Part shown: one piece after another, positions 25,332 to 29,595 of the stretch | Layout of the letters: each line of letters begins with the position of its first letter | Position numbering within the stretch: position 1 is the first letter of the stretch | Assembly (NCBI RefSeq): GCF_003576315.1 | Contig: NZ_QWFZ01000003.1 | Location: 806,001 to 870,000 of the forward strand | Length of the DNA: 64,000 nucleotides | Source: Henriciella mobilis | GTDB taxonomy: Bacteria; Pseudomonadota; Alphaproteobacteria; Caulobacterales; Hyphomonadaceae | Reading direction: 5' to 3' | Notes under the pieces: model-generated | The model's input: only the letters and a program-made list of their open reading frames with translations | Databases searched by the model: none | Told to the model about the DNA's origin: nothing | Program-made: the position numbers and the translations under genes

Positions 25332-25808
25332 TCAGGCTTCGTCGAGCTGCTTGCGGGCGACCGCATCATAGGCAGCGACATTCTCGGCATCATCGGAAGT
25401 TGGCCCGACATTGGACAGGTCCTGCTCAAGCCATTCGATGCCCTTGCGAAGCTCTACAAGGGCGACCTCGATATCTTCGCGCTGGTCCTCGAACTCCTGG
25501 ACCTGCTTGCGGAATTTCTCGAGCGTCTTGCGCTTCTGGGCGCGCTGATTGTCGCCCAGGCCGTAAAGGTCGAGGATTTCGCGGATGTCGGCAAGTGGCA
25601 GGCCGAGACGCTTCATTCTCACGATGATCGTGACGCGGGCGCGATCGCGATGAGAGTAGACGCGGGTCATGCCATCCCGTGCGGGGTGCAGCATGTCCTT
25701 GTCTTCATAGAAGCGGAGGGCGCGAGGCGTGATGCCGAATTCGCGGGCGAGTTCCGAGATCGTGTAGGTGCGGCTCTCGGCGATGGAAAGGGAAGCTGTA
25801 TCTGGCAT
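25332..25808 (-). CDS. MerR family regulator of acyl-CoA degradation (LiuR-like)
   Basis: The 158-residue protein has the MerR helix-turn-helix (YTISELAREFGITPRALRFYEDKDML, quoted in part; residues 15-40) then SHRDRARVTIIVRMKRLGLP, and a C-terminal coiled coil (about 90-135: AQKRKTLEKFRKQVQEFEDQ) for dimerisation. It lacks the metal-binding Cys pattern of MerR metal sensors and resembles LiuR, which controls leucine/branched-chain degradation. It lies beside the acyl-CoA dehydrogenases and has its own operator over its promoter, so it probably autoregulates. Its transcript is predicted to be nearly leaderless. Confidence 0.88.
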   Translation of the reverse strand: MPDTASLSIAESRTYTISELAREFGITPRALRFYEDKDMLHPARDGMTRVYSHRDRARVTIIVRMKRLGLPLADIREILDLYGLGDNQRAQKRKTLEKFRKQVQEFEDQREDIEVALVELRKGIEWLEQDLSNVGPTSDDAENVAAYDAVARKQLDEA

Positions 25809-25816
25809 GATTGCGA

Positions 25817-25844
25817 ATAATACGCGCCTTTACGCGAACGTCAA
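25817..25844 (-). promoter_or_regulatory. merR promoter with LiuR-like operator
   Basis: Minus strand: TTGACG (25844-25839) as -35, 16-base spacer, TATTAT (25822-25817) as -10. The 16-bp operator TTGACGTTCGCGTAAA (25844-25829) overlaps the -35 and spacer, where MerR proteins normally bind. The -10 ends 9 bases before the ATG (25808), so the start point falls within a few bases of it and no Shine-Dalgarno is present. A further similar half site lies at 25858-25873. Confidence 0.6.
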
Positions 25845-25876
25845 CGTCATCTTTCCCTTTGCGTAAAAGTAATGTG

Positions 25877-25968
25877 GAATCCGGGGACTCCGCGCCCGGG
25901 ATGAAGCGGTCCTTGCAACTCTGTGAATAATTCCGGCAGCGCAGTTTACCTTTTTAACGGGGTTTTAA
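25877..25968 (+). promoter_or_regulatory. podJ control region: two GANTC sites, DnaA box, CtrA box
   Basis: GAATC (25877-25881) and GACTC (25886-25890) are CcrM methylation/GcrA sites. TTATTCACA on the minus strand (25922-25930) fits the DnaA box TTATNCACA. TTAA-CGGGGTT-TTAA (25954-25968) is a perfect CtrA box (TTAA-N7-TTAA). All lie within 180 bases of the podJ ATG at 26056. Sites are seen directly; binding is inferred from known consensus sequences. Confidence 0.7.
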
Positions 25969-26055
25969 GACGAAGCTTACCATTCACGTAATGATAAGGT
26001 GGCGAGGGGCTGCCTGCCGGTCACTCACGGCCTGTCTTGGAGTGGAGCGCTTAGC

Positions 26056-29000
26056 ATGTCGAATTATGGTCCCTGGAGCGTCAAGGGAATCGACCAGCGA
26101 GCCCGCGAAGCGGCGCGCGAAGCAGCCCGCGAGGAAGGCCTCACCATTGGCGAATATATCAATCGCATGCTGCTTGAGGAAACCGACGAGGACGCGCCGT
26201 CCATGCGCGATTATCGCGAACCGAGATATCCCCGCGCCGTCGAGGAACTGGCGCCAGAGCCACGCCGCCCACAACAGGGCCGCGGAACATTCGACCAGCT
26301 GATTGCGCGCCTCGAAGCGGTCGAAGCGCGGTCCACGCTCGCGCTGACGGGCATTGACCAGTCCATCGTTGGGCTGGTCGCGCGCCTGAACAAGACGGAT
26401 GCGAAGTCCGACCGGGTCGCCGAGAATGTCGATGCCTTCATCGAGGATCTGCGCACGACGTATGAGCAGCTCCAGGAAAAGGTCGAGGCGCTTGAGGAAG
26501 ACGATACCGGCGCGCGCAATCTTGAATCGCTGAAATCGCTGGAAAAGGCGCTCGGCGAACTGGCCAGCCATATCAACGAGCAGAACGAGCGCCGCAAGAA
26601 CGAAAACCAGGACATTCGCGGCCAGGTCAAATCCGACCTTGAAGACGTGAAGAACCGTGTATCGGGTATGGAGAAGCGCGTCGAAAGCACGCTGGCCGAC
26701 ACGTCCCGGCGGATCGAGGAAGCCCTGGAGCAGGCCGAGGCCTGGTCGGAGAAATCCTCACGCAAACTCAATGAGCGGGTGTCCGAGGTCGAAAGCACGG
26801 TTGCGTCGAAACTGTCGCGGCTGGACCAGTTCGACGAGCGCATGGGCGCGGTCGAAGGCGACGTTGCCGGTGCGCTGAGCTCCATCGAGGCTGTGATGAC
26901 CCGCATGCAGGACCGCCTGCATCGCGCCGAAACGGCAACCAATACCGCGCTCGAGGGGCTTGAGCAGACCTTCAACCGGCTGGACCAGCGCATCAACGAA
27001 CTTGCCGAGCATGCTTCACCGGAAGCGGCCGCCGAGCTCAAGGCGCAGTTTGAGTCGCGCTTCGAAGGCCTTGCGAGCGAGCTGCGCTCGTCGGTCGAGT
27101 CGGCCCGCGAGTCGCTGGCCCGAGAGATCGAGGAAGCAGCTGCATCTGCCGATCCGGAAAAACTGGGGGCGCTTGAAGAAAGTGTCGACGGGCTTCAGAA
27201 GCGCGTCGCCGCCAGCGAGGAACGCTCCAGCCGCGCCCTTGAAGGCATGACCAACCAGGTCAGCCGGATTTCGACCTCCCTCGACCGACGCCTGCGCGAC
27301 GTGGAAGCGCGCGACCCGGGTGAGGCTGTCGAGACCGTGCGCGCGGACATGGAAAAGCTGACCCAGGAGGTCAGCGACCGCTTCGAGCAGTTCGACTCGC
27401 AGAATGACGAAGTGATCAACAAGATTACCGAACAGATGCAGGCGCTTGCTGACCAGTTCGAGTCGCGCGTTGATGAAAGCGAACAGCGCAGCGCCAACGC
27501 GATCGAGCAGGTTGGCGAACAGGTTGCCAATGTCGCCCAGCGTCTGCAGGCGCGCCAGGAACGGGCGTTCACGCAGCTTCAGGAATCGATGGAACAGGCG
27601 CGCAAGCAGCAAAGCATGCGCCTGTCCGACGCGCTGACCGGCGTGTCTGACCGTATCGAGAAGATGCAGCAGCAGCAGGCGTCGGCCATGTCGCCCGTGC
27701 AGAAGGCGATTGCATCCCTCGCGACGCGCCTCGAGGCGCTGGAAGATTTCACGGCCCCGCCGCATGCTCAACCTGCCCGGGCTGACTCTGAACCGGACTT
27801 TCCCGGGCCGGATTATGATGGCTTTGCCGATGAGCCAGACACGTCAAACGATCTGACTTTCGATGAAAAGGGGCACGAGCCCAGCGACCTCGAAATGCTG
27901 GTTGCTGAAATCGAGGATGAGGCGCCGGCGGCAGAAGCGGATGCTGGCGATGACATCTTCGAAATCGAGATCGACGAATCCGGTCTCGAGGACGACGAGG
28001 ACGCCGCCTTCGAGGCCGGCATTCCCGATATCTCCGAAGTCGACGAGCCATCGGACGCGGTCGAGACAGAATCCGACTTGCTGGAGACGCTGGAAATCGA
28101 TGACGGTGATGAGCCTGTCGAAATTGCCGATCCGGACGCCGACCCGCTCTCTGAGCTTTCGTCCTGGGATGATGGGGCCGATGAGGCCCGTGACAGCGAC
28201 ATATTTGGCGAGGATGATCCCGGCGACCTGCTGGAGGCCGGCGAAGACAGCGAGCCCGAGACCGACCTAGAGGCCGATGAAGAGACCCTGGCCGACGCTG
28301 AGGAAGAGGCACCCCTCCAGGAAGATCCAGAGGCGATGGACTATCTGTCCCGCGCCCGCAAGGCTGCAATGTCCGCCACCGCCGAGTCCCGTCGTGGCAA
28401 GGTCAATACAGGCAAGCGTGGCAAGTCCCGCGTGCCTCTGGTTGCGGCCGTTTCCGTAATCGCTCTGGCGACCGCCGCAGCGGGTACTTTCGTTACGCTG
28501 CGTGGCCTGCAGCAGGACGCCGACCGTCCGGTCGTGCAGTCCACGACGCCGGTGCATGCCGAGCCGACATCAGCGGATGCCGCCCCGGAAGAAACGTCCG
28601 CCCCCGAAGAGACTGCAGCCGCGCCAGTGATCGAACCACTCGATTCGAGCGAGCTGGCATCCCTGTCACCCGAAGACGAGGCCGCGGTCGAAAGCGAGCT
28701 GTTTGAGGAGCCGGCGGACAGCCCCGCGCCGCAAGCATTGCAGCCAGTCGTCGATTATGCGGCCCTGCCGAGGATTCCGCAGACGCCAACCCTCGAATCC
28801 GCGGCGTCGACAGGCGATCCGGTCGCCCAGCTGATCCTTGGCGAACAACGCCTTGATGCCGGTGACTATACGAGTGGCCCGAGCCTGGTGCGACGGGCGG
28901 CCGAAGCCGGCGAGCCTGCCGCCCAGTATCGCCTGGCCAAGCTGCATGAGCGCGGCCTTGGCGTGCCGAAGGATCTCGAAGCCGCCCGCCAATGGACCGA

Positions 29001-29595
29001 ACGCGCCGCCGAGGGCGGCAACGTCAAGGCGATGCACGACCTCGCCGTCTACTATGCCGAAGGCGAAGGCGGCCAGCAGAGCTATGCCGCCGCCGCTGAA
29101 TGGTTCCGCAAGGCTGCCGATTACGGCCTGACAGACAGCCAGTACAACCTCGCCGTCCTTTACGAAGCCGGGCTCGGCATTTCGCCCAGCCGGACAGAAG
29201 CGCTTTACTGGTATGAAGTCGCGAACGCGCAGGGCGATAGCGGCGCCATCGAGAAAGTGGAAGAGCTGCGCGCAGGGCTCTCGCTTGATGCCGCCCAGCA
29301 GGCCCAGCGCCGTGCGGCGAGCTGGAGCCCCGCCGAGCCGTCAGCCCGTCCGAATGGCCGTTTCGGCTTGCAGGCCTGGCAGGGCAGTTCGGCCGAGCAG
29401 GTCCGCTCGGTCCAGACGGTGCTTGGTGCCCTTGGTTATGAGGCCGGGCCCGCCGATGGTGTCATGGGTGCCGGCACGAGCAGCGCAATTGCCGCCTATC
29501 AGCGCGATGCCGGTCTGCCGGCCACAGGTTCGATCACGCCGGAACTGGTGAGCAGCCTCAACAACACGGTCGAGGGCGCCAGCCAGGGCGGCTAG
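26056..29595 (+). CDS. podJ: PodJ-like polar localisation factor (coiled coil, membrane segment, SEL1 repeats, PG-binding domain)
   Basis: The 1179-residue protein starts MSNYGPWSVKGIDQRARE, like the conserved N-terminus of PodJ; the upstream Met at 25999 is not needed. Order: coiled coil in the cytoplasm (about 60-560), acidic region rich in Asp and Glu (570-760), one membrane helix (794-814, PLVAAVSVIALATAAAGTF), Pro/Glu-rich linker, SEL1-like repeats (about 910-1070: AQYRLAKLHERGLGVPKDLE), and a C-terminal PG_binding_1 domain (1108-1171). PodJ marks the new pole and recruits PleC and pilus/holdfast factors in Caulobacter. The upstream DnaA, GANTC and CtrA motifs fit its known cell-cycle control. 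Confidence 0.9.
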   Translation: MSNYGPWSVKGIDQRAREAAREAAREEGLTIGEYINRMLLEETDEDAPSMRDYREPRYPRAVEELAPEPRRPQQGRGTFDQLIARLEAVEARSTLALTGIDQSIVGLVARLNKTDAKSDRVAENVDAFIEDLRTTYEQLQEKVEALEEDDTGARNLESLKSLEKALGELASHINEQNERRKNENQDIRGQVKSDLEDVKNRVSGMEKRVESTLADTSRRIEEALEQAEAWSEKSSRKLNERVSEVESTVASKLSRLDQFDERMGAVEGDVAGALSSIEAVMTRMQDRLHRAETATNTALEGLEQTFNRLDQRINELAEHASPEAAAELKAQFESRFEGLASELRSSVESARESLAREIEEAAASADPEKLGALEESVDGLQKRVAASEERSSRALEGMTNQVSRISTSLDRRLRDVEARDPGEAVETVRADMEKLTQEVSDRFEQFDSQNDEVINKITEQMQALADQFESRVDESEQRSANAIEQVGEQVANVAQRLQARQERAFTQLQESMEQARKQQSMRLSDALTGVSDRIEKMQQQQASAMSPVQKAIASLATRLEALEDFTAPPHAQPARADSEPDFPGPDYDGFADEPDTSNDLTFDEKGHEPSDLEMLVAEIEDEAPAAEADAGDDIFEIEIDESGLEDDEDAAFEAGIPDISEVDEPSDAVETESDLLETLEIDDGDEPVEIADPDADPLSELSSWDDGADEARDSDIFGEDDPGDLLEAGEDSEPETDLEADEETLADAEEEAPLQEDPEAMDYLSRARKAAMSATAESRRGKVNTGKRGKSRVPLVAAVSVIALATAAAGTFVTLRGLQQDADRPVVQSTTPVHAEPTSADAAPEETSAPEETAAAPVIEPLDSSELASLSPEDEAAVESELFEEPADSPAPQALQPVVDYAALPRIPQTPTLESAASTGDPVAQLILGEQRLDAGDYTSGPSLVRRAAEAGEPAAQYRLAKLHERGLGVPKDLEAARQWTERAAEGGNVKAMHDLAVYYAEGEGGQQSYAAAAEWFRKAADYGLTDSQYNLAVLYEAGLGISPSRTEALYWYEVANAQGDSGAIEKVEELRAGLSLDAAQQAQRRAASWSPAEPSARPNGRFGLQAWQGSSAEQVRSVQTVLGALGYEAGPADGVMGAGTSSAIAAYQRDAGLPATGSITPELVSSLNNTVEGASQGG

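Follow-up and report, generated by a model that had tools for sequence, protein, structure and literature searches.

Our analysis suggests that the 92 bases between positions 25877 and 25968 belong to the podJ promoter region of a Henriciella-like member of the Hyphomonadaceae, and that the functional core of this region is probably a single high-quality CtrA dimer site (25954-25968) through which CtrA would time podJ transcription. The two GANTC sites and the perfect DnaA box found in the same 92 bases probably lie outside the conserved podJ circuit. Judged from sequence comparison, they look like accidents of one species. The features discussed below are listed here with their positions in the window, the 64-kb stretch of DNA that was analysed:

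25332 to 25808, minus strand: merR, a divergent MerR-family regulator gene, assigned by Pfam and synteny
25877 to 25881, no strand assigned: first GANTC site, GAATC, not conserved
25886 to 25890, no strand assigned: second GANTC site, GACTC, not conserved
25922 to 25930, minus strand: perfect DnaA box TTATTCACA, a private variant of a clade-level TNTGAAYAA element
25924 to 25932, plus strand: TGAATAATT, part of the TGAA(C/T)AA element, recognised by an enrichment count
25945 to 25950, plus strand: TTTACC hexamer, 9 bases upstream of the start of the CtrA box, candidate extra CtrA half-site
25954 to 25968, plus strand: CtrA box TTAACGGGGTTTTAA, TTAAC-N6-TTAA and thus a perfect TTAA-N7-TTAA, -102 to -88 from the podJ start
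25981 to 25983, plus strand: CAT, 12 bases after the CtrA box, recognised by column conservation anchored on the box
26056 to 29595, plus strand: podJ orthologue, 1179 aa, assigned by Pfam and by comparison with the Caulobacter sp. CCUG 60055 orthologue

A preliminary description of the region had reported two GANTC sites, a perfect DnaA box on the minus strand, a perfect CtrA box of the form TTAA-N7-TTAA and a PodJ-like gene downstream, and all of these are present. It had also proposed that the polarity and cell-cycle circuit is shared with Caulobacter. This idea survives for the link between CtrA and podJ, but not for a promoter under the joint control of DnaA, GcrA/CcrM and CtrA. The comparison of podJ upstream regions among relatives, which the description had put forward as a check, divides along the same line: the CtrA box is conserved and keeps nearly the same distance to podJ, whereas neither the DnaA box nor the GANTC pair is conserved.

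The gene at 26056 is a true podJ orthologue. Its product combines coiled coils, one hydrophobic segment (read from the sequence), Sel1 repeats (Pfam E-value 1.2e-24) and a C-terminal PG_binding_1 domain (E-value 4.7e-13) with the N-terminal WSVKGID motif, as expected for the polarity factor PodJ. Identity to the Caulobacter sp. CCUG 60055 orthologue is 29% in the N-terminal half and 43% in the C-terminal part, alignment backs the ATG at 26056 as the start codon, and a search of the Henriciella genome with the Caulobacter protein returns this gene as the best match. The 92-base stretch precedes that start by 88-179 bases. The genome also encodes CtrA (the best match to a Caulobacter CtrA query shows 78% identity across 228 aa), GcrA, SciP and a CcrM-like methylase with N6_N4_Mtase and RAMA domains.

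podJ and merR are divergently transcribed from a common intergenic region. In the Hyphomonadaceae genomes examined, podJ retains merR and an acyl-CoA dehydrogenase gene on its upstream side, so that the equivalent intergenic region was compared in every genome. In Caulobacter-type genomes a synteny check detected no merR next to podJ. A scan for sigma-70 promoters found no convincing -35/-10 pair for podJ and yielded only a merR promoter, TTGACG-N16-TATTAT, near the merR start codon (25817-25849). This promoter is overlapped by TTTACGCGAACGTCAACGTCA, and the ACGTCAA core found there is almost invariant among aligned relatives. We take the ACGTCAA element to resemble the LiuR/MerR-type operators of acyl-CoA degradation genes; acyl-CoA degradation genes sit downstream at the merR locus.

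The CtrA box at 25954-25968 is the sole TTAA-N7-TTAA match within the window, where 0.02 are expected. The whole genome (3.97 Mb) contains 12 such matches, compared to 31 for a backwards control pattern, and only four matches to the stricter TTAAC-N6-TTAA. Most of the other perfect boxes listed adjoin genes without an obvious cell-cycle role. One of them (positions 1501-1515 of locus L169) precedes a parE-like gene by about 65 bases.

For the comparison with relatives we used podJ upstream regions from 135 genomes or records, some of which are one genome reached twice. Thinning left 65 regions that are not near-identical: 38 from Hyphomonadaceae and 27 that we call Caulobacter-type (Caulobacteraceae, Maricaulaceae, Robiginitomaculum and unnamed families of the same order), a manual split based on names and N-terminal sequences. 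All promoter counts span related species and are not independent events. TTAA-N7-TTAA occurs in 36 of the 38 Hyphomonadaceae promoters, and in 37 if N6 is allowed, when about 0.2 (0.21) would be expected from shuffling. The control spacings N4, N5, N8, N9 and N10 give 0-2 matches in the same promoters. The start of the box precedes the podJ ATG by 79-108 bases in these 36 promoters. The best reading of this pattern is that CtrA input to podJ has been strongly selected in the Hyphomonadaceae.

When the 36 promoters are anchored on the box, which by itself fixes the TTAA columns, 35 of them show a C directly after the first TTAA. Conservation is weak at most spacer positions and in the flanks beyond about -15 on the upstream side. 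The CAT exactly 12 bases after the box is kept at each position by most promoters (C in 34/36, A in 31/36, T in 32/36), and it may mark a core-promoter position tied to CtrA. The TTTACC hexamer is retained in Henriciella and many Hyphomonas, with a spacing to the box of 7-9 between lineages, and reads TTAACC in two relatives (G035 and G043). It is a candidate for an extra CtrA half-site.

The two GANTC sites tell a different story from the CtrA box. The window contains far fewer GANTC sites than expected (88 vs 319), so that two sites within 14 bases are locally unusual. The pair falls in a non-conserved indel adjoining merR, at a distance of 69 bases from the start of merR and 170-179 bases from that of podJ, and is absent from all nine Henriciella relatives aligned. 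A comparable insertion exists in one relative only, without either site. The pair forms a short inverted repeat, GGAATCCGGGGACTCC (25876-25891), with a terminator-like score on the minus strand. We also considered the pair as part of the merR promoter and rejected this, since no aligned relative keeps it. Neither site fits the extended GcrA motif YGAKTCK, which is absent from this podJ promoter, and this genome has no GANTC between the CtrA box and the podJ ATG. Of what would be expected at a GcrA/CcrM-controlled podJ promoter, GcrA and a CcrM-like methylase are encoded, while a conserved GANTC of the extended form YGAKTCK was not found in the core promoter. Across the 38 Hyphomonadaceae promoters YGAKTCK is present in 16 over 300 bases, compared to up to 18 for scrambled controls. 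The excess of GANTC in the last 100 bases is modest (22/38 vs 4-15 for scrambled palindromes). The pair is probably private to this species and not part of the conserved podJ circuit.

The DnaA box fares similarly. TTATNCACA has one match in the window (25922-25930), with 0.29 expected and at least one match in 24 of 100 shuffles. A perfect box is found in 2/38 Hyphomonadaceae podJ promoters. If up to one mismatch to TTATNCACA is allowed, the figure is 3/38 vs 5.7 expected, which is rarer than chance if anything. The conservation in relatives that a DnaA-controlled podJ promoter should display is not seen, and the perfect box probably is species-private and no part of the conserved circuit. 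In most of the nine aligned Henriciella relatives the position of the box reads TGAAGAA, TGAATAA or TGAACAA. TGAA(C/T)AA itself is enriched and directional: it is present on the podJ strand in 11 Hyphomonadaceae promoters and on the opposite strand in 3, with 1.6 expected. It lies upstream of the CtrA box in Henriciella and downstream of it (-60) in some Hyphomonas-type promoters. Among Hyphomonas loci (L100-L114) we observed a recurrent TGTGAAC(G/A)AATC about 60 bases before podJ, downstream of the CtrA box; it consists of a DnaA-like half that in many is joined to a GANTC.

Caulobacter-type promoters are built differently. TCCACA is present in 22/27 of them and TTTACAC in 25/27, with TCCACA about 46 bases upstream of TTTACAC in most. 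The difference in TCCACA between the two groups is large (P about 1e-9, Fisher's test, uncorrected for shared descent). All 27 have a GANTC at most 100 bases from the start, and a perfect CtrA box, with N6 or N7, is present in 10/27, in most cases between -155 and -196. At six Caulobacter-type loci a conserved GTTTACAC follows TCCACA at a distance of about 46 bases; in such loci GTTTACAC is followed by a TAGCGT-like hexamer, and GATTC often stands just before the ATG. The counts agree with the mapped podJ promoters of Caulobacter, where P1 at -120 has a full CtrA motif, TTAA-N6-TTAA, at -49 of P1, about 169 bases upstream of the gene, and P2 has a DnaA motif and a GANTC (PMC4287350). They also agree with the GcrA dependence of Caulobacter podJ (PMC3667746).

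Like Caulobacter crescentus with its P1 and P2, the genome analysed here has a podJ orthologue with a full CtrA motif upstream and encodes the same set of regulators. Unlike in C. crescentus, its box is TTAA-N7-TTAA at -102, not TTAA-N6-TTAA about 169 bases upstream, no GANTC separates the box from the ATG, and the family does not conserve the DnaA box. In predicted GcrA regulons of Caulobacteraceae and Hyphomonadaceae, from the study that gives the extended motif YGAKTCK, podJ ranks among the likely targets of GcrA for the majority of 23 species (PMC7987155). In contrast to this prediction the motif is absent from the podJ promoter of this genome, and its frequency in Hyphomonadaceae is no clearer than that of some scrambled controls. 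The best reading seems to be that the Hyphomonadaceae lost, relocated or never acquired the inputs from DnaA and GcrA that are known in Caulobacter. More tentatively, one could argue that the podJ promoter was rewired between Caulobacteraceae and Hyphomonadaceae, with a fixed-spacing module of DnaA box, TTTACAC and GANTC in the former and a near-invariant CtrA dimer site with a fixed-spacing CAT in the latter. The diverged TNTGAAYAA, now a perfect DnaA box in two species, would then be either what is left of DnaA input or a site for some other regulator. This reading is possible, but we lean slightly against it.

Another comparison is Hyphomonas neptunium, a member of the same family. Its PodJ orthologue HNE_0666 is reported to localise to the pole and to position PleC, and the ChIP consensus of CtrA is given as TTAA-N7-TTAAC (PMC7200025). 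The box analysed here has the same N7 spacing, but in the conserved podJ box the C follows the first TTAA, not the second. As far as the main text of that study goes, podJ is not named as a CtrA target, many CtrA-bound genes are unchanged on depletion of the CtrA pathway, and only seven direct CtrA targets are common to H. neptunium and C. crescentus (PMC7200025).

We propose that phosphorylated CtrA would bind 25954-25968 and set when in the cell cycle podJ is transcribed. Its most likely role is that of a promoter-proximal activator, although position alone fits activation or repression. If the geometry is like that of Caulobacter podJ P1, with the CtrA motif at -49, the predicted start of the podJ transcript is some 50 bases ahead of the ATG. 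PodJ localises PleC, which feeds back on CtrA through DivK and CckA, so that a CtrA site at podJ would close a loop from CtrA through PodJ, PleC and CckA back to CtrA.

One could also imagine CtrA bound at the conserved site as a repressor of podJ, whose transcription would come from an upstream promoter around TNTGAAYAA. In favour of this, TGAAYAA is directional and precedes the box in Henriciella, and with transcription starting there the CtrA box would come after the start. We consider this variant unlikely: in some Hyphomonas-type promoters TGAAYAA lies downstream of the box, which makes a common repressor geometry unlikely, and the fixed CAT after the box points to a downstream start. Less plausible still is the full Caulobacter-type circuit, in which these sites would place podJ under DnaA, GcrA/CcrM and CtrA together. 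It would account for all four motifs being exact and the regulators being encoded, and Caulobacter podJ does have DnaA, GANTC and CtrA elements (PMC4287350, PMC3667746). However, in Caulobacter these elements are placed differently relative to the start, the GANTC pair is missing from all nine of the closest relatives aligned, lies in an indel and does not match the extended motif, and a perfect DnaA box is found in only two of the 38 promoters. In Brevundimonas subvibrioides podJ has a GcrA peak yet is not GcrA-dependent (PMC7987155).

It is very hard to believe that the CtrA box serves merR and not podJ, even though the two genes share the region in the Hyphomonadaceae genomes examined. The gap from the box to podJ (82 +/- 8 bases) is far steadier than that to merR (134 +/- 29), CtrA boxes also occur in Caulobacter-type podJ promoters, where merR was not detected beside podJ, and merR has a promoter of its own with a conserved ACGTCAA-type element.

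If CtrA does control podJ through this site, the site ties CtrA to a polarity factor that helps to control CtrA. CtrA regulons turn over quickly (PMC7200025), so that a family-wide CtrA site in a nearly constant place would mark a link held by selection. The contrast between Hyphomonadaceae and Caulobacter-type promoters may then offer a clean case of cell-cycle promoter rewiring in which the gene and its regulators are retained.

A further GAATC lies within podJ itself, at 26087-26091 (+31 in the coding sequence), where it spans the codons GGA ATC of K-G-I. It recurs in 10 of the thinned promoter set, and GGA makes up about 9% of glycine codons in such N-terminal regions. The recurrence could reflect selection for GANTC or for A-rich early codons.
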